Positions 32,345 through 46,769 of a stretch of DNA of 64,000 bases are shown one piece after another (position 1 is the stretch's first letter; the number at the start of each line of letters is the position of its first letter). The position numbers and the translations under genes are program-made. A model generated the notes under the pieces. It had not been told where the DNA came from and made no database searches. It saw nothing but the letters and a program-made list of their open reading frames with translations. The stretch spans positions 1-64,000 of the forward strand of contig JANQJC010000140.1 of NCBI GenBank assembly GCA_028281825.1. The letters run 5' to 3'. The DNA comes from Flavobacteriales bacterium (GTDB lineage: Bacteria > Bacteroidota > Bacteroidia > JANQJC01).

Positions 32345-33346
32345 TTATTGGCCTTGAAGGTCAAGTGCCTCACGTGTTGAAATTCTAGTGCCGTTATTGT
32401 AAGCAGTAACAAATGCACCTTCGCATCCATTATTGTCTCTCAAGCTGCTTCTAAAGGTATGAGCAGCAGTATATGAGCTGAATTCACCAACAGTAAACTT
32501 AATCCAACCTTCGTGGTCTTCCTTATATACTTGGTCTGAAATACTGTACTTGGAAGCAAAGTCATTTGCAGTTGAATTAGCATTGTGCGTAGCTGCAATT
32601 TGAACACGGTATATCACACCACTACCTGAGTTAGCTGATTTCGCTGTCTCCACCTTTTTAGGTGTTTCCTTCTTGGCTTCAGCCTTCATTCTTTCCTCTT
32701 CTTCTTTTTTGCGCTTAGCTTCTTCAGCTGCTTTTTTATCAGCGGCTGCTTTTGCTTTTTCAGCTTCTTCTTTTGCCTTTTTAGCGGCTGCTTCTTCAGC
32801 CTTTTTCGCGTCAGCTTCAGCCTGGCTATTGTCCGCTACAGGCTCTTCTTTCTTAGGCTCATCTTTTACAACAGGCTTTTCAGTGGCTGGGTCAACAGTG
32901 GTCACTTCCTGTTCTGGTTGTGTAGCCCCAACTTCCACTTTTATAATCTCTTGAAAAGAGAACTTTTGTGTCTCGTTATCCTTGATATAAGAAAATGCCC
33001 CATCAAAAACCTGGGTCCCTGAAACACTTGGGTCTATAGTTAAGTTGTATGAAACGGTAAACTCATCACCATTAGGTAAAGCCATCCAAAGGTATTTTAC
33101 CTTTTTATCCTTAAAGGAAAAAGTGGAGTTGGCTGTTTCTACGGCTGTTGCATTAAAACCTGAAGGCAGTTCTTGCTGTAGCTTGGCAAAGCCAGTAATA
33201 CCAGGCTTGCTTACTGTCAATTCTACTTTATGTGTACTTCCTGGTGCAGCAGCAGCAGGAAGATTGGTTTTAACAGTAGCCACTTGAGCGAAAGCAAAAG
33301 ACCCTGACAAAACAGCCGCAATAGTTAGTGTAAGATTCCTCATCAT
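32345..33346 (-). CDS. SPOR-domain envelope protein with TolA-like helix
   Basis: 333 residues. A signal peptide ends FAFAQ. Residues about 25-140 form a beta-rich domain with ITGFAKLQQELPSGF and DEFTVSYNLTID. A Lys/Glu/Ala-rich helix follows (about 170-235, KKAEEAAAKKAKEEAEKAKA), of the kind that spans the periplasm in TolA. A C-terminal SPOR domain (about 247-325, YRVQIAATHNANSTANDFAS) would bind denuded peptidoglycan. The last residues, REALDLQGQ, match the end of the barrel/SPOR protein at 27310. It has its own likely promoter and terminator. Probable role: linking the outer-membrane barrels to the cell wall; this is inference. Confidence 0.85.
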   Translation of the reverse strand: MMRNLTLTIAAVLSGSFAFAQVATVKTNLPAAAAPGSTHKVELTVSKPGITGFAKLQQELPSGFNATAVETANSTFSFKDKKVKYLWMALPNGDEFTVSYNLTIDPSVSGTQVFDGAFSYIKDNETQKFSFQEIIKVEVGATQPEQEVTTVDPATEKPVVKDEPKKEEPVADNSQAEADAKKAEEAAAKKAKEEAEKAKAAADKKAAEEAKRKKEEEERMKAEAKKETPKKVETAKSANSGSGVIYRVQIAATHNANSTANDFASKYSISDQVYKEDHEGWIKFTVGEFSSYTAAHTFRSSLRDNNGCEGAFVTAYNNGTRISTREALDLQGQ

Positions 33347-34889: not shown

Positions 34890-36464
34890 TTATTGATCAA
34901 AGAAGAAATCAATCAATGAGTGAAGCTTAGATGCAGTATAGTCAAGTTCTCCATCAAAGAAGGCGTCGATAGCATTTGAAATCTCATCAGCTGAGATATA
35001 ACCATCGTTGTTCAGGTCTACTTCCCTAAACTCACCAAGGTCAACTTTTGAACCAGTCTTAACTTCTTCAAACTTGTGGTATTGTCCAACAGGTTCTGGT
35101 GCCGAACTTGGGTATACTTCCTTCAGGTGTTTTCTTTGAGCTGCCAATGTATCATCTTTAACCAGCACAGCCTCTTCACCTATGGTGATACCATTGATAT
35201 CCACAATTGCACCTACTGGTGAGTTTGGCTCCTCATCCTTGTAATCAGGAACCCCATCCAAATCCATATCTGGAGGACAACCATTTTCATCAACTGGAAC
35301 TCCGTCAGGCGTGTCAGCACATTGGTCAGTCATGTTAGGTACGCCATCGCCATCATCATCACCATCATCAATACCATCAAAACTCACATCATCGTAAACA
35401 CTTGGCTCCTTGCCTGGCGTTTTACTTCCAAGATTGTAGCTAAGGTTAATTTCAGTATACAGGAATTGGTCGTTATCCATAATACTGCCATCACCAACTT
35501 TAAAGTTGTCTAGGTAGTCAGTTTGAGTTAACACAAAAGTTCCCCTCACATCAAAGTTAAACTTGTCAGATAGCTTATACCTTAAACCGACACCCACAGG
35601 TATAGTCAGTGAAGTTTTTTCATAAGTGGCTGAGTCGCCATAAGCAAAATCCAATGCAGTTTCATAATCGCCGTCAAAGTTAGTCCTGTTGTAATCAGGG
35701 CTGTTTGGGTCTATATGGCTGATGGTGGTTTCATCAGGCAGCTCAGTCCTTATGGTACCATCTTCCCACAAAATGTAAGGCTTGCCATCTTCATTCAAGA
35801 AATCACCTTTAGGCTCAAACATCATGTAGCCTACACCACCAAACAAATATGGTGAAAACCTCGATGCCCTGTTAATGAATAAGTTATTGTCTAGGTAAAG
35901 TATTACGTCTAACTCACCATGCATGATGGTCGACTCGAAGTTCTTGTAAGTTAGATTGTCTCTTTGGCTCTCTGAAACTTGACCATACAAACCACCCAGG
36001 GAAACACCTAGTGCGCTCCAAATCCTTTCTTCAATGCGAAGAGAATATCCATAACGCATTTGATGGTACTTAAAGTAAGAGTTGCGATTATCTATATCGC
36101 CAAAGAAAGAAATAGGACCAACACCCACACCGATAGAAGGAAGTTTATTCACTACATAAGGAGGGCGCTCACGCTTTTCCTTTTTCTCCTTTTCAGGTTT
36201 TTCTTCCTTCACCTTTTCGGCCTTCGGCTCTTTTTCCTTTTTCTCCTTCTCAGGCTTTTCTTTCTTCACCTTCTCAGCCTTTGGCTCTTTTTCCTTTTTT
36301 TCCTTCTTCTCTTTCTCTTTTTTCTCCTTCTTTTTCTTTTCCTTTTTGTCCTTACCTTTCTTGGTTTCGGTCTTAGTTGGTTCAGTAGTTTCCTGGGCAA
36401 GAGCTAGGTAGTTCTCCCCGATTAATAAAACTGCTAATAAAAGTAGTAAATGTTTTAACCTCAT
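34890..36464 (-). CDS. Outer-membrane barrel protein with Lys/Glu-rich N-terminus, TSP3 repeats and EF-hand-like tail
   Basis: 524 residues. After the signal peptide (MRLKHLLLLLAVLLIGENYL, ending LALAQ) comes a striking Lys/Glu/Pro block (about 30-100) built from repeats such as KEPKAEKVKKEKPEKEKK, probably an extended periplasmic spacer. The barrel (about 105-345) has GVGVGPISFFGDI, FSPYLFGGVGYMMFEPKGDF, YILWEDGTIRTEL and YETALDFAYG. TSP3 repeats are DGDDDGDGVPNMTDQC and DMDLDGVPDYKDEEP. A single EF-hand-like module, VDLNNDGYISADEISNAI, ends LIDFFFDQ. It is the first gene of the leftward barrel cluster; the next gene starts 51 bases downstream. Confidence 0.82.
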   Translation of the reverse strand: MRLKHLLLLLAVLLIGENYLALAQETTEPTKTETKKGKDKKEKKKKEKKEKEKKEKKEKEPKAEKVKKEKPEKEKKEKEPKAEKVKEEKPEKEKKEKRERPPYVVNKLPSIGVGVGPISFFGDIDNRNSYFKYHQMRYGYSLRIEERIWSALGVSLGGLYGQVSESQRDNLTYKNFESTIMHGELDVILYLDNNLFINRASRFSPYLFGGVGYMMFEPKGDFLNEDGKPYILWEDGTIRTELPDETTISHIDPNSPDYNRTNFDGDYETALDFAYGDSATYEKTSLTIPVGVGLRYKLSDKFNFDVRGTFVLTQTDYLDNFKVGDGSIMDNDQFLYTEINLSYNLGSKTPGKEPSVYDDVSFDGIDDGDDDGDGVPNMTDQCADTPDGVPVDENGCPPDMDLDGVPDYKDEEPNSPVGAIVDINGITIGEEAVLVKDDTLAAQRKHLKEVYPSSAPEPVGQYHKFEEVKTGSKVDLGEFREVDLNNDGYISADEISNAIDAFFDGELDYTASKLHSLIDFFFDQ

Positions 36465-40629: not shown

Positions 40630-41718
40630 CTATTGTGCTTCTTTGTCTTTATTTTTTCTGGTTATACCATATAGAACGCCAAAAACCAGTAAAAAATATA
40701 ATGCAAAGATAGCGAAGTGTATGTAATCCCAGTTAGGGATAAACGCTTCAATTAAAATTAAAAACAATAGAGATAGCAATGAAAGGTCAAGAAATATCCA
40801 GGCTACCTGCCTGTCTGTGAACCCAAGATAGGAAAGGTGGTGGGTAGTATGGTCCTTACCTCCAACAAATGGAGACTGTCCTTTCATAAGCCTGTTGATT
40901 ACCACGGTGGTGGTGTCAATTATAGGCATAATAAATACCAGGGCGGGAATGATTAGTTGTTTGGTTTGTATGCGAAAACCCTCACCGTCGTATATATTCC
41001 AGAAATAGGTCATGCCAATAGCTGCGAGAAACACACCAAGGAATTGACTGCCTGTATCGCCCATGTACATTTTAGATGGATGCCAGTTAAAAAAAAGGAA
41101 ACCCAACAAGGATGAAAGCACACCCAATAAAATGATAAAGTGGATATTGCTGTAATCACTATTTAGCACCAACATTAATATGGCTGCCAATATCACTGAG
41201 ATAGAAATACTCGCTGTAATGGCATCCATGTTATCCAGCATATTAATGGAGTTCATTAAGCCCACCACCCAGAAAATAGTTAGTATATAATTGAGAATGG
41301 GAGTATTAAAAAAGTCAATGTAGGTACCACTGACAATTAGGATAATTGCGCAGGATACCTGTCCAAGAAACTTTAAAAGTGGTTTGGTGTTGTAAGCATC
41401 ATCAGCTAAGCCAATAATGAAGCCTAAGGTGCATGAGGCAAGAAAACCAATGAAGGCCTTATTGCTCAGCATGTCATCTGCTTTAAAAAATATGGAATAG
41501 CAGGCAATAGACAAGAGAAAGAGTATATAAAAAGAAATCCCTCCTAACGCAGGCTTTGATTGTGTACTCCAGCGAATTACCGTATTGTCAGTATCCCTTA
41601 TTCCTAAGGTTTTTGAAAACTTGAGAAACAGTCCATTAATAAGAAATGAAAACAAAATAGTGGTTACAAAAAACGCACTAAATATGATAACGATATAGGC
41701 GGGAGTATCGGTTTGCAA
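40630..41718 (-). CDS. WecA/MraY-family undecaprenyl-phosphate sugar-phosphate transferase
   Basis: 362 residues and about eleven membrane helices. It starts lipid-linked glycan synthesis by moving a sugar-1-phosphate to undecaprenyl phosphate. Active-site landmarks are GLADDAYNTKPLLKF (the DD pair), NSINMLDNMDAITAS (the NxxNxxDNxD motif, where most WecA have DGxDG) and GGKDHTTHHL (the His loop). It is 44 bases after rfbC and carries a -7 box in that gap, so it may also be transcribed on its own. Sugar specificity is unknown. Confidence 0.92.
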   Translation of the reverse strand: MQTDTPAYIVIIFSAFFVTTILFSFLINGLFLKFSKTLGIRDTDNTVIRWSTQSKPALGGISFYILFLLSIACYSIFFKADDMLSNKAFIGFLASCTLGFIIGLADDAYNTKPLLKFLGQVSCAIILIVSGTYIDFFNTPILNYILTIFWVVGLMNSINMLDNMDAITASISISVILAAILMLVLNSDYSNIHFIILLGVLSSLLGFLFFNWHPSKMYMGDTGSQFLGVFLAAIGMTYFWNIYDGEGFRIQTKQLIIPALVFIMPIIDTTTVVINRLMKGQSPFVGGKDHTTHHLSYLGFTDRQVAWIFLDLSLLSLLFLILIEAFIPNWDYIHFAIFALYFLLVFGVLYGITRKNKDKEAQ

Positions 41719-41762: not shown

Positions 41763-42305
41763 CTAAAAATGGGAAATAAAGTCCTTAAAAAGTTTGGCTT
41801 TCAGGTCTTTATCAGAAATAATTGGATTGACAGCTTGCCAATCTATACCCAGTTCTGGGTCATTCCACAAAATGGCATCTTCGGATTCTTTATTGTAAAC
41901 ATTGGTACACTTGTACGAAAACAGCGTGTTATCCTCAAGTGTGTGGAAACCATGAGCAAAGCCAGCTGGTATCCACAGAGCCAGATGATTGCTTTCACTC
42001 AACTCTAGTTTGTAATGCTTGCCATAGGTTAGGGAATCTTTTCTTATGTCAACTACCACGTCCAAAACTGCCCCACGCAATACTCTAACCAATTTACCCT
42101 GAGCAAAAGGTGGATTTTGGAGGTGAAGGCCTCTAAGCACATTTTTGTTGGAGAGTGAAAGGTTATCTTGTAAAAAATTAACGTCTATGCCCTTCTTGTT
42201 GTATTGCTCTTTATTGTAAGTCTCAAGGAAATACCCTCTTTCATCCTTAAAGACTTTTGCCTTTACAACATACAGTCCATCAAAACCTGTCTCTTGAAGC
42301 TCCAT
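41763..42305 (-). CDS. rfbC: dTDP-4-dehydrorhamnose 3,5-epimerase
   Basis: 180 residues, the usual cupin length for RmlC/RfbC. It contains DERGYFLETYNKEQY, DNLSLSNKNVLRGLHLQ (the catalytic His is in RGLHLQ), VVVDIRKDSLTYGKH and IPAGFAHGFHTLEDNTLFSYK. It epimerises dTDP-4-keto-6-deoxyglucose on the way to dTDP-L-rhamnose. The other rhamnose genes rfbA, rfbB and rfbD are not in the window and must lie elsewhere if rhamnose is made. It starts nine bases after the tyrosine-kinase gene. Confidence 0.96.
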   Translation of the reverse strand: MELQETGFDGLYVVKAKVFKDERGYFLETYNKEQYNKKGIDVNFLQDNLSLSNKNVLRGLHLQNPPFAQGKLVRVLRGAVLDVVVDIRKDSLTYGKHYKLELSESNHLALWIPAGFAHGFHTLEDNTLFSYKCTNVYNKESEDAILWNDPELGIDWQAVNPIISDKDLKAKLFKDFISHF

Positions 42306-42314
42306 ATCTATTAC

Positions 42315-44780
42315 CTATGATTTCTTAGAGAAAAACCTCTTTAGTAAACCACCTTTGTTTTCCGTTTCGTCTTCTTCATAATATCCATACCCGTAGCCAT
42401 ATCCATAACCATAGCCATACCCGTATCCATAGCCGTAACCATACCCGTATCCGTATCCGTACCCGTATCCATAGCCATAGCCCGGTCTTTGTATCTCAAA
42501 ACCATTCAATATCACAGTAAGTTTGCTGATGTTATTACGGTGTATCAACTGCTCAATATTATTCAAAAAGGCCTTCTTTGAATAGTTTGCCCTAAGAATA
42601 TAGATTGGGAAGTCAGCCTTTTGCAGATTAACGATACCATCCGTTACAATACCCACTGGCGGGTTATCAATAATGATGATATCATAAACACTTTTCAGGT
42701 AGTCCAATACCTCATCCATCTTTTGGCTAATAATAAGCTCTGATGGGTTAGGGGGGATAGGGCCTGCTGTGATGTAGTCTAGATTATCCAGGTTACTTTT
42801 CTTGATACAATCTTGTGGAGTATCCTTGTCAATAAGGATGGTACTCATCCCCTTGTTGTTTTCAACATTAAAACCAAGGTGAATCTTAGGCTTCCTCATG
42901 TCCAAGTCGATAATCACCACCTTCTTACCTCCATAGGCAATGATACCACCCAGGTTAATAGCCACGAAGGTTTTTCCTTCACCTGATATAGTGGAAGTAA
43001 TGGATATAATTTTGGCTGAGTCCTCTTTTGAGATAAATTGCATATTGGTTCTGATGGACCTAAATGCTTCTGAAATCATTGATTTAGGGCTCTTATCAAC
43101 CAACAGTTGTGAGTTCGGGATATCCTTTTTATACCTTGGTACCACGCCCAAAACACCCGCAGTGGAATATTTCTGAATATCTACTGGAGCAGTAATATCA
43201 TTGTGCATCAGGTATTTCACACTCACCAGTGAGATACTTAATACCAAGCTAGCTAAGGCACAGGTTAAAATCACATTATCCCTCTTAGGTGAAACAGGGT
43301 CATCTGGTGGGCTGGCTCTTTCAAGTATTTCGTTTTTAGATACATAACCTGCTTTAGCTATTGAGAAGGTTGCCTTTTTCTCAATCAATTCATTATAGAA
43401 ATTCTCATTTACCGAGTAGATGCGCTGTAGCCTGTTGTATTCCAATTCATTGATGTTGGCTTGCTTGCTATGCACATTAGCCACTATATCATCTCGTTTT
43501 TTTGCCAACTCGCTCTTTCTGGTTTGTAGGTTGTCAAGTATTGACTTTATACTTTCGGTAACTAGCTTTTTTTGAATTTCTATCTGGTAGTCAAGTGATT
43601 TGATTTGTTCACTGTTCTCTTTTACCATATAAGCCAATTCTTCTCTCTTGAAAAGAAGCTGTTGCAACTTATCAAGGTATTGAGATACAGTACCCTCATA
43701 GCTGGTGCCTGAAACAAGCGCAATAAGCCCATAAATATCAAGGTCTTCCTCTTTTGATATTTCTTTATCTATTCTTCCAAGTACACTTTCCTGAAAATCC
43801 ATTTCAAGCAGTTGGTTGTCAAGGCTTTCAATAATCATCAGAGTTCCCTCTGTTATCCTTTCCTCGGTTTCAGATTTCTTTATCTGATGCTGCGTTTGAA
43901 AGTTTTGAAGGGCTATTTCAGCATCATATAGTTTATCATAAATAACAGAAAGTTGTTCATCGATAAACATCAATACTTTGGTAGCACTTTCAGATTTTTT
44001 CTCTACATCATAGTCCTTAAATTCTTCACACACAGAATTGACAATATCAGAGGCTTTGGTTGCATTTCTATCCTGCATGCTCACAGATACGGTCTTGGCA
44101 AACTCGTTAATTACTTCTACTTTGAGCTTTGAGGCATAAGACGGTACAATCCTGGTAGGGTCGTTGATTACAAAGAAGAAGTTATTCTCAAGAGCAGTAC
44201 TTTCTTGATATATCTTATCGGGGTCAAGCAGTTTGACCTTCATTTTCATATATCGGGTCTCAAAAGTATCTTGAAGCAAGAAACTTTCCTTCACCTGGTA
44301 CTTACCAATATTGAACTCAATTGATACTTCAAAATTGTCTTTGAACTCAATATCAATGGGTATACCATAGATTTCAGGAGCCATGATGTCATAATGAATC
44401 CGATAAGGGCAGTTTTTGTACTGCTCAAAACTTAATACTGTTCCCTTATTGAAATAACTCACATCCAGTGGAAGGTCTCTAAGCACGCGCTCAATAAACA
44501 CATTGGACTTCATCAGTTCAATCTCCTTAAAAACCTGTTGGTCGTAAAGGCTGTTTACTGGCATTATACCAAACTGTTGGTCGCTAACAGTAAGCTGTAA
44601 TACACCCTTTGATTCATAAATGGGGTGTGTGTATCTAAGGTATAATACGGCTATTGTGATAAAAATGGCGAAGAATAGAATTATCCATAGCAAGTTTTTT
44701 CTAGTGGTGAACAGGATAAGCCCCAAATCGAACTCATCGTTCAAACTAGTAATCTTCTTTTTCTCTATTCCTGCTGCCAT
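42315..44780 (-). CDS. Wzc-like polysaccharide chain-length regulator and tyrosine autokinase
   Basis: 821 residues. A Wzz domain with two membrane helices (about 30-52 and 508-525) flanks a long periplasmic part with coiled coils. The C-terminal cytoplasmic BY-kinase has Walker A ISGEGKTFVAINLGG, Walker A' VVIIDLDMRKP and Walker B IIIIDNPPVG. It couples exopolysaccharide length and export to cycles of Tyr autophosphorylation. The tail is exceptional: 17 successive Gly-Tyr pairs plus one more Tyr, then an acidic patch and KKS, where other Wzc proteins have a short Tyr cluster. It sits between the Wza-like gene (nine bases) and rfbC (nine bases). Confidence 0.95.
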   Translation of the reverse strand: MAAGIEKKKITSLNDEFDLGLILFTTRKNLLWIILFFAIFITIAVLYLRYTHPIYESKGVLQLTVSDQQFGIMPVNSLYDQQVFKEIELMKSNVFIERVLRDLPLDVSYFNKGTVLSFEQYKNCPYRIHYDIMAPEIYGIPIDIEFKDNFEVSIEFNIGKYQVKESFLLQDTFETRYMKMKVKLLDPDKIYQESTALENNFFFVINDPTRIVPSYASKLKVEVINEFAKTVSVSMQDRNATKASDIVNSVCEEFKDYDVEKKSESATKVLMFIDEQLSVIYDKLYDAEIALQNFQTQHQIKKSETEERITEGTLMIIESLDNQLLEMDFQESVLGRIDKEISKEEDLDIYGLIALVSGTSYEGTVSQYLDKLQQLLFKREELAYMVKENSEQIKSLDYQIEIQKKLVTESIKSILDNLQTRKSELAKKRDDIVANVHSKQANINELEYNRLQRIYSVNENFYNELIEKKATFSIAKAGYVSKNEILERASPPDDPVSPKRDNVILTCALASLVLSISLVSVKYLMHNDITAPVDIQKYSTAGVLGVVPRYKKDIPNSQLLVDKSPKSMISEAFRSIRTNMQFISKEDSAKIISITSTISGEGKTFVAINLGGIIAYGGKKVVIIDLDMRKPKIHLGFNVENNKGMSTILIDKDTPQDCIKKSNLDNLDYITAGPIPPNPSELIISQKMDEVLDYLKSVYDIIIIDNPPVGIVTDGIVNLQKADFPIYILRANYSKKAFLNNIEQLIHRNNISKLTVILNGFEIQRPGYGYGYGYGYGYGYGYGYGYGYGYGYGYGYGYGYYEEDETENKGGLLKRFFSKKS
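42381..42482 (-). repeat. 17 x 6-bp tandem repeat coding for Gly-Tyr
   Basis: 102 bases made of 17 units of GGN-TAY at the 3' end of the tyrosine-kinase gene. All four Gly codons and both Tyr codons are mixed without a simple order, so the DNA is degenerate while the peptide is perfect. Units of six bases can expand or shrink without shifting the frame. Confidence 0.97.
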
Positions 44781-44789
44781 GTTAATTCG

Positions 44790-45548
44790 CTATCTATTGA
44801 AAGGACTATTAACTACCAGTGTGAATACTAATAATACAGTTGACAAAATTGAAAAATAGGGTGCTGCAAGCGCAAGGGTTTTAGAGGCATATTCTTTGCG
44901 CGTTTCGATATAGATTATATCCTGGCTTTGCATGACTACATCAGCGTTTTTCAAAGTTTCGAGTGAAGATAGGTCAATCAGATATACTTCTGGGTTGTCC
45001 AAATCTCCTCGAATTAGTTTTATAAACTGTGCCTTACCATTTTCTGGTATGCCTCCTGCTTTTGCCAATACCTCGAAAATAGTGGTGTTGTCGTTTTCAA
45101 GATTAACAACAGATGCACTTCCTTCTGAGAAAATGTATACCCTTCTGTTGGAGACTTCTACAAGCACAAATGGGTCGTTGTAAAATTCTGCGTATAAATC
45201 TTCAAGATAAAACTCTAGTTGCCTTATAGTTAACCCTGATATATACTTTCTGCCTATGACGGGTAAGTTGATAAATCCGTCAAACTCTACCTTCAGCTCC
45301 AGAGCCGAACCTCCAACAGAAGTGTTTTGTGCAGCTTGATTAAGGATATTAAGCAAAGCACTTCCTTCATTCGTAAACAAACGAATTAGTATAACATCAT
45401 TGGGCGCAACTTTGTACTCTAGGTCACGGGTAGCTGGCATCTCATCAAACTGAAAATCTTCATCAGTTGTGAGCATATGGTTTTGTATTAAGCTCTTGCA
45501 CGAGCTTAACATAATCATTGCCAATAGTATGAGCAGGCTTTTTCTCAT
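44790..45548 (-). CDS. Wza-like polysaccharide export lipoprotein
   Basis: 252 residues. A lipoprotein signal ends in the lipobox MLSSC. The polysaccharide export domain (about 40-130, YKVAPNDVILIRLFTNEGSA) is followed by a SLBB-like domain (about 140-215, ILAKAGGIPENGKAQFIKLI) and a C-terminal hydrophobic helix (about 225-248). It should form the outer-membrane export pore that works with the Wzc-like kinase encoded nine bases downstream. It is shorter than E. coli Wza (379), with fewer SLBB repeats, as is common in Bacteroidota. Confidence 0.92.
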   Translation of the reverse strand: MRKSLLILLAMIMLSSCKSLIQNHMLTTDEDFQFDEMPATRDLEYKVAPNDVILIRLFTNEGSALLNILNQAAQNTSVGGSALELKVEFDGFINLPVIGRKYISGLTIRQLEFYLEDLYAEFYNDPFVLVEVSNRRVYIFSEGSASVVNLENDNTTIFEVLAKAGGIPENGKAQFIKLIRGDLDNPEVYLIDLSSLETLKNADVVMQSQDIIYIETRKEYASKTLALAAPYFSILSTVLLVFTLVVNSPFNR

Positions 45549-45581: not shown

Positions 45582-46769
45582 TTACTTGGGTAACAATTCT
45601 AAATACAAATCACGCATATCTTTCACCAATCTTTCATAATGGTATCGCTCCCTCACGTGCGCCCACCCACTTTCACTCATTTGCTTGCGTAATTCCTTAT
45701 TCTCGGTTAATTGTAACAGGTTTTGCGCAAATACTGATGAGTCTCCGCTGTTGCATAATAAGGCCGTTTTTCCCTCGGCTACCACATCTTCTACACCACC
45801 TACTTTGGTTGAGACAATGGGCTTATCTGTTGCCTGGGCTTCTATCAAGCTCACAGGTGTACCTTCATTAAGAGAAGTAAGTGCAACAATATCTAGTCCT
45901 GCGTAGGCCCAGTCTACATCCTTTATCCATGATGTGAATACAAGGTTTGCTGATTCATCTTTGCTATCGGGGGTGCTAATTATAAAACCAAGCTGCTCGG
46001 CATATTCTCTTATACTTTGGCTCTCTTCGCCATCACCTATGATAAAGACCTTGGCTTTTTTTCGGGTGTTCTTCATCACCACATGCATGGCGTCCAAAAA
46101 CATGCGATGGTTCTTGATGGGCACCAACCTGCCAACAATTCCGATAGCAAGTTCATCATCCTTCATCTTATAGGTTTTTCTGAAGTTCACTCTTTTTTGT
46201 TCTATATTCTCCCTAAATCGGGACAAATCAAAGCCAAGCGGAATGACATGGGTTTTATCAGAATTGGTAACCTTATGAATGTTGGTGAGCTCGTGCTTTT
46301 GCTGGTCACTGATAGCTATTATGGCGGAACTTCTATTAGCCATATACCTTTCTACTTTTTTGTAGAAAAGCGTTTTGGCTTTGCCGAAATAAGAGTGAAA
46401 TACATGCCCATGAAAAGTGTGTATTATTACTGGTACCCCACAATTATAAGCTGCCAGTCGGCCTAGTGCCCCAGCCTTGGACGCATGGGTATGTACTACA
46501 TCGGGCTTATAGTCTTTTATCAGTTCAACTAGTTTCCTATAAGCCGCATAATCTTTCTTGGGGTCAATTTCCCGAACCATTTCGTCAATTATCATTGGCT
46601 TCAATCCATATTTTTTCAGAATATGGTCTGATGATTCCTCATTCTCGCCAATGGCTCCACCTATCAATAGTGTTTCAAATGGTTCTCCTAGAAATTTAGT
46701 TAGCAGGGCTACGTTGTAGGAAGGTCCTCCAAGGTTAAATCGATTGGCTATTCTCAAGACCTTATACAT
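45582..46769 (-). CDS. Glycosyltransferase family 4
   Basis: 395 residues with a GT-B fold. The N-terminal part has RIANRFNLGGPSYNVALL and PDVVHTHASKAGALGRLAA; the C-terminal donor-binding part has GIVGRLVPIKNHRMFLDA, VFIIGDGEESQSI and ALTSLNEGTPVSLIEAQA (the E-x7-E motif typical of GT4). It adds a sugar to a lipid-linked intermediate, most likely for the exopolysaccharide handled by the genes downstream. Donor and acceptor are unknown. It is the first gene of the leftward polysaccharide run; the Wza-like gene follows after 33 bases. Confidence 0.94.
   Translation of the reverse strand: MYKVLRIANRFNLGGPSYNVALLTKFLGEPFETLLIGGAIGENEESSDHILKKYGLKPMIIDEMVREIDPKKDYAAYRKLVELIKDYKPDVVHTHASKAGALGRLAAYNCGVPVIIHTFHGHVFHSYFGKAKTLFYKKVERYMANRSSAIIAISDQQKHELTNIHKVTNSDKTHVIPLGFDLSRFRENIEQKRVNFRKTYKMKDDELAIGIVGRLVPIKNHRMFLDAMHVVMKNTRKKAKVFIIGDGEESQSIREYAEQLGFIISTPDSKDESANLVFTSWIKDVDWAYAGLDIVALTSLNEGTPVSLIEAQATDKPIVSTKVGGVEDVVAEGKTALLCNSGDSSVFAQNLLQLTENKELRKQMSESGWAHVRERYHYERLVKDMRDLYLELLPK

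Follow-up and report, generated by a model that had tools for sequence, protein, structure and literature searches.

The window, that is, the whole 64,000-nucleotide stretch of Flavobacteriales DNA analyzed here, encodes a Wzc-type tyrosine autokinase that ends in a perfect ladder of 17 Gly-Tyr pairs, and this tail is genuine and under selection, of a known and ordinary kind, with a length that is extreme. We consider it likely that the ladder is an enlarged multisite autophosphorylation tail, which would be threaded through the kinase by a YxY ratchet and act as a high-capacity switch. The anatomy of the tail, the conservation of the catalytic residues, the maintenance of both the ladder and its hydroxyls, and the synteny with Wza-like and sugar genes are all observed. 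Multisite tail phosphorylation, proposed in a preliminary description of this DNA, is the best reading by homology with E. coli Wzc and P. gingivalis Ptk1 (available parts of PMC11986026 and PMC6759763). How phosphorylation of Wzc-type tails sets polymer length is a question so far approached with proteins whose Tyr are few and irregular, and natural ladders of 1 to 17 uniform rungs with the same gene neighbors are a ready series in which to test the number against the identity of the sites. As far as the open literature shows, a class-wide Gly-Tyr (GY) ladder has not been described before; searches of that literature turned up no account of GY ladders in BY-kinases.

A Wzc-type kinase in a polysaccharide locus

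The kinase gene spans positions 42,315 to 44,780 (minus strand, as do all the genes and gene features located below) and encodes 821 residues, and its translation agrees with the initial report of 17 Gly-Tyr pairs at 42,381–42,482 and an 18th Tyr. The Pfam domains Wzz (residues 15–103), GNVR (450–522), and AAA_31 (590–731) all score above cut-off, with the N-terminal Wzz and GNVR and the C-terminal kinase domain in one chain, as is characteristic of PCP-2a proteins. The NCBIfam family TIGR01007 (eps_fam) matches at 172.7 bits for a cut-off of 108.05; the Wzc equivalog NF008568 reaches 230, far under its cut-off of 1068, so the protein is not an orthologue of enterobacterial Wzc. Its top sequence relatives in the PDB are Wzc structures (2.6e-48), and its AlphaFold model (mean pLDDT 78.9, pTM 0.55, 28 sequences) resembles Wzc over most of its length. 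The top Foldseek matches are Wzc, with 9r62 at 4.3e-39 (TM 0.43/0.51, a multidomain comparison), and VIA gives a Z of 33.1 against Wzc 7nhs, its best match being CapAB (Z 33.8); the kinase domain is close to those of CapAB and Wzc, with an rmsd of 2.1 over 243 residues against 3la6. The alignment shows that the catalytic Lys603, Asp627, and Asp705 are retained. They lie in the Walker A motif GEGKT (residues 600–604; 42,969–42,983), where Lys603 is aligned with Lys540 of E. coli Wzc, in the Walker A′ motif VVIIDLDMR (621–629; 42,894–42,920), where Asp627 is invariant, and in the Walker B motif IIIIDNPP (701–708; 42,657–42,680), where Asp705 and Pro708 are invariant. Two hydrophobic helices of the model, at residues 30–50 (44,631–44,693) and 500–525 (43,206–43,283), are putatively transmembrane by comparison with Wzc. 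The assignment as a Wzc-type tyrosine autokinase (PCP-2a/BY-kinase), already made in the preliminary description, is confirmed. A second BY-kinase of the same genome (L001, G000:C23:28969-31311) is ∼28% identical and has just four GY pairs in its tail.

The gene sits between a Wza-like gene and rmlC, with genes for a WecA-like transferase and a glycosyltransferase close by. Within 1.5-kb flanks of the kinase genes of 29 class relatives, counterparts of the Wza-like outer membrane polysaccharide export protein (OPX; 44,790–45,548; Pfam Poly_export and SLBB_2) and of RmlC, a dTDP-4-dehydrorhamnose 3,5-epimerase (41,763–42,305; Pfam/NCBIfam), were each found in 28, of the GT4-type glycosyltransferase (45,582–46,769; Pfam) in 25, and of the WecA-like initiating sugar-phosphate transferase (40,630–41,718; Pfam Glycos_transf_4) in 24, so that most of these are orthologous loci. 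Unlike in the E. coli Wzc locus, a Pfam scan of 16 ORFs of the window found no wzb-like phosphatase; outside the window, the same genome has one CpsB/CapC-type phosphatase and two members of the LMW-phosphatase family. Other repeats in the window are a Lys/Glu/Pro-rich tandem repeat of 57-bp and 24-bp units (36,175–36,353) near the N terminus of a PorG-like outer membrane protein (34,890–36,464) and an Ala/Lys/Glu-rich repeat (32,735–32,818) in a protein (32,345–33,346) with a C-terminal, slightly subthreshold SPOR match.

Tail anatomy and distribution

The ladder occupies residues 767–800 and is followed by Tyr801 (42,378–42,380), the 18 tail Tyr spanning residues 768–801 within a region (766–812) modeled with a pLDDT below 50. 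It is not a chance feature, because the array is the sole (GY)8 match in its own genome, where the reversed control pattern gave none. Beyond it come an acidic collar, EEDETE (802–807; 42,360–42,377), and a basic end, KGGLLKRFFSKKS (809–821; 42,318–42,356), with a short helix predicted at 812–817. The same order is seen in most class tails: the first six residues past the ladder have a mean net acid of +1.56 in class relatives, and the basic ends a net +4.37 (27 tails). These basic ends have a raised hydrophobic moment (0.612 against 0.499 in shuffles, sd 0.027; 22 tails), as do the ends of (GY)12 kinases (0.535 against 0.457, sd 0.013; 72 tails), with the cut point past the ladder set automatically and failing in a few rows (ends of 1–2 residues). 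Since 31 longer tails of the phylum draw described below also show it (0.605 against 0.494), an amphipathic end is not specific to ladders; the window protein's own end is basic, yet the moment of its last 11 residues is just 0.366. L096, L103, L141, L162, and others share GYY, then acidic residues, then a Lys/Phe/Leu-rich end, possibly a recurrent terminal motif.

The gene had been presented as an exception to tails with a few Tyr, a contrast that its relatives do not bear out: 30 class sequences carry 8–18 tail Tyr (median 12), with a longest GY run of 1 to 17. These 30—the window protein and its 29 best-scoring relatives, all from the same class—were joined by 20 fetched later, and at least three GY pairs are present in 45/50 tails (29/30 in the first set, 16/20 in the second), the window's 17 being the longest, followed by 16 and 15. 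The 50 tails were drawn from 60 genomes, counting the window's own; among the remaining 10, some lacked a complete kinase in the matches listed, and G021 and G057 were counted in the phylum set only. The phylum draw consists of 90 kinases, the 30 and next 60 top matches listed in 198 genomes without the window's own (G000). Among these top matches GY runs do not exceed 10, and at least three pairs are found in 23/27 kinases of the same class versus 6/63 of other classes, which makes the ladder a trait of the class and the window's ladder its long end. Other-class kinases often end in dense YYKYYYYY clusters, which are not ladders (L183–L212), and in some (L216 and L217) the tail Tyr alternate with spacers other than Gly, e.g., YKYNYKYNYKYKYDYAY.

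Arrays of (GY)8 or more occur in 28/395 genomes of the phylum, downstream of a BY-kinase domain in 27 and at a contig edge in the 28th. A scan of all genomes for (GY)12 or more gave at least 120 stretches; of the 120 listed, 100 lie in a BY-kinase ORF and one more, L134, is a tail of this form that has been cut. Among these listed matches the longest kinase ladder is also 17 (L156), and seven tails exceed the window's in total Tyr, with up to 23. The 100 kinases are labeled Bacteroidota (89), Bacillota (3), Lentisphaerota (2), Chlorobiota (2), Bdellovibrionota (1), Pseudomonadota (1), Fibrobacterota (1), and unassigned (1); because the labels come from the records, most of which are MAGs, an isolated odd phylum may reflect a binning error. 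Tail counts leave out L002, L049, L061, and L062, which repeat the same arrays, as well as identical tails, and L059, at a contig edge, has no domain. On a FastTree phylogeny of 182 kinase domains, a sample enriched for ladders, with flagged long branches and weak support, the minimum number of changes is 13 for GY≥8 and five for GY≥3, i.e., ladder length changes often and presence rarely. Counting ladder origins from this tree was dropped as too biased and too weakly supported.

Maintenance of the ladder and its hydroxyls

Codons in the ladder are well mixed, as had been claimed: GGA (6), GGC (5), GGG (4), and GGT (2) for Gly, TAT (10) and TAC (7) for Tyr. All eight possible GGN-TAY hexamers are present, and the hexamer heterozygosity of 0.83 is above that of each of the 100 other kinase arrays of at least 12 pairs among the matches listed. 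GGT encodes 2/17 Gly in the ladder versus 17/29 in the rest of the gene (Fisher p 0.002). The further claim that the peptide is kept and does not reflect recent slippage was borne out by comparing repeat number across relatives. L006 and L007, 53 and 52% identical to the window protein, retain 16 and 15 pairs, encoded by codons in another order, and their four-fold synonymous identity to the window gene (0.26 and 0.29) is at saturation. Within five same-genus pairs, substituted units counted, repeat length is equal in three and one unit apart in two. The ladder peptide is maintained by selection, as seen in the 16 and 15 pairs kept at saturated synonymous divergence and in the rarity with which Phe replaces a lost Tyr.

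Could the ladder nevertheless be a neutral expansion, by slippage, of a short Tyr cluster, with a length that has no functional effect? We find this very improbable. It would fit the differences in ladder length between families, the uniform or nearly uniform arrays of L007 (with its run of identical units), L054, and L057, which indicate that slippage does occur in some kinase ladders, and the loose 18-bp periodicity that Tandem Repeats Finder detects in the window array (5.7 copies, 80% match), which makes older block duplications possible; a lag-3 excess in this array is not significant, being reached by 114/500 permutations. Against it stand the lengths held across saturated synonymous divergence, the codons of the window array, the most mixed of the 101 kinase arrays among the matches listed, and the nature of the 120 listed (GY)12+ stretches, in which mixed codons (at least three hexamer types) are confined to BY-kinase tails. 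The remaining 19 of these stretches lack a kinase domain, are built from one or two hexamer types, and are near-pure DNA microsatellites. Mixed-codon kinase ladders set against pure hexamer microsatellites offer a clear example of a peptide repeat kept by selection.

Identical adjacent hexamers are depleted in the 100 listed kinase arrays (0.150 versus 0.240 permuted; 0/500 permutations as low) and in subsets of 46 representatives (z -4.9) and 16 (z -2.8), weakly so (z -1.0) in a second set, of 41 arrays that are for the most part shorter; the window array, taken alone, lacks the signal. The alternation is not accounted for by pooled codon context (Markov 0.321 versus 0.290 observed). A lag-2 excess is present in the 100 arrays and in the 46, not in the 16, and growth by 12-bp blocks could equally explain the alternation. 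Given the weak second set and this lag-2 excess, alternation was rejected as proof of selection against slippage; block growth and protection from slippage both fit the depletion.

Substitutions at the ladder Tyr bear on what they are kept for. In the frame YGxGY of 207 distinct ladder tails, x is Tyr 1792 times and another residue 55 times: Gln 9, Asn 8, Ser 7, His 5, Thr 5, Phe 4, Ala 4, Gly 3, Asp 3, Glu 3, Arg 2, and Lys 2. The replacements are mostly polar or small, and Trp is absent; once these 55 are collapsed by context, Phe is 2/45. A prior count on 188 tails gave 2/47 for Phe. Phe makes up 100/180 replacements in Tyr-majority control columns before the tail in 30 orthologues and 39/110 in alignment A1, with Fisher values of 3e-11 and 6e-5 that overstate independence, the rows being related; among single-base changes, Phe is not clearly depleted at ladder Tyr sites. 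At these Tyr the hydroxyl thus seems, from sequence comparison, to matter more than the ring, and the rarity of Phe fits phosphorylation better than aromatic stacking. A phase-separating tail, also envisaged in the preliminary description, is accordingly disfavored. That the GY run is a sticker-spacer segment of low complexity, clustering the complexes by phase separation or aromatic stacking, would suit its composition of Tyr stickers and Gly spacers and the probable disorder of residues 766–812, modeled with low confidence. It strikes us as barely credible with Phe, the expected aromatic substitute, at just 4/55 and Trp missing, although this argument is not airtight, as most control columns lie in folded regions, where Phe is favored for other reasons.

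A proposed ratcheted tail and known systems

For the window protein, phosphorylation, assembly into an octamer, the ratchet, and the link to a polysaccharide are proposed by analogy with its homologues. In E. coli Wzc, according to the available parts of PMC11986026 and PMC8285477, the tail enters the active site of the neighboring subunit, and no single tail Tyr is essential (PMC8285477). Phosphorylation proceeds stepwise from C to N by a YxY ratchet, in which a pocket holds the Tyr at i-2; the octamer is lost after about four phosphates, and its stability parallels polymerase activity; what counts is the extent of phosphorylation, with a tipping point, and not site identity (PMC11986026, available parts). 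The ladder fits this ratchet, because from its second Tyr onward each is preceded by another Tyr at i-2 (this does not hold for Tyr801), and a perfect GY ladder would be an ideal substrate for it. One Tyr would be phosphorylated while the Tyr at i-2 waits in the pocket, the tail would then advance one rung towards the kinase, and the Gly spacer would leave all rungs sterically equivalent. With so many rungs the tail could become a high-capacity switch: up to 18 phospho-Tyr per subunit would break up the ring and stop polymerization or export, and a phosphatase would reset the tail. Since E. coli Wzc disassembles after about four phosphates, the 18 sites may not all be used.

The tyrosine pocket of E. 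coli Wzc, Glu675 and Ser679, aligns with Phe738 (42,567–42,569) and Ile742 in the window protein, and the Glu675 column holds Phe in 29/29 aligned class sequences. With these residues not kept, the ratchet may differ in detail; the putative hydrophobic pocket may still serve as a tyrosine pocket. A link between pocket residues and ladders was discarded, as hydrophobic residues occupy the Glu675 column in ladder-less kinases too. The YxY spacing is not a phylum-wide rule: in the phylum draw, 47 distinct cores of ladder-poor tails (at most two GY pairs) show no excess of Tyr at i-2 (0.353 versus 0.375 shuffled), which ruled out a universal YxY periodicity. Where ladders are interrupted, point changes alone can explain why their phase stays coherent.

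Ptk1 of P. gingivalis is phosphorylated on each of Tyr775, 782, 784, 786, 788, and 790, so a series of Tyr at two-residue spacing can become phosphorylated throughout in a Bacteroidota BY-kinase, and the phosphatase Php1 drives Ptk1 to a low-phosphorylation state without intermediates, for which the authors favor a threshold (PMC6759763, available parts). This switch-like behavior makes a switch likelier than fine grading and, with the E. coli tipping point, goes against the graded control suggested in the preliminary description. It also weighs against the idea that rung number is a timer or counter that sets polymer length, more rungs giving longer assembly and longer chains, as does the span of the longest GY run from 1 to 17 among 30 class sequences. 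The near-constant length in same-genus pairs (equal in three, one unit apart in two of five), the 15–17 pairs kept by the window protein and by two relatives whose synonymous sites are saturated, and the stepwise phosphorylation and stability-activity parallel of E. coli Wzc would all be in keeping with such a counter, which we nonetheless judge improbable. A fuller model for long-track BY-kinases of Bacteroidia is rather unlikely as a whole: up to 17 equivalent YxY steps, an acidic collar that would mimic a phosphorylated start, a basic end that would anchor the tail, and a selected rung number, protected in the DNA by differing synonymous neighbor repeats, that would set the assembly time of the export machine.

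CpsD of Streptococcus pneumoniae reportedly has a (YGX)4 repeat domain (Morona 2003). It would thus be, like the window protein, a capsule BY-kinase with a Tyr-Gly repeat tail, but it is a separate kinase polypeptide with a three-residue unit and four repeats. CapAB of Staphylococcus aureus shares the kinase fold (Z 33.8) and a tail inserted in its neighbor, but is a two-polypeptide system with a shorter tail (PMC8285477, available parts). E. coli Wzc shares with the window protein the Wzz domain, the pair of hydrophobic helices, the BY-kinase at the C terminus, the Tyr-rich tail, the Wza-like neighbor gene, and the fold (Z 33); unlike the window protein, the K-12 protein has six tail Tyr (705–715) in a mixed sequence with no long GY run, its C terminus following soon after. 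Ptk1 is, like the window protein, a Bacteroidota Wzc-type kinase whose last residue is 821 and whose gene has a wza-like neighbor (available parts of PMC6759763, PMC8863745, and PMC4082711), and it is served by PHP and LMW phosphatases (same sources). It differs in having six phosphorylated Tyr within 16 residues against the 18 tail Tyr here, while its tail Tyr 782–790, all phosphorylated, are spaced by two exactly as in the ladder (PMC6759763, available parts).
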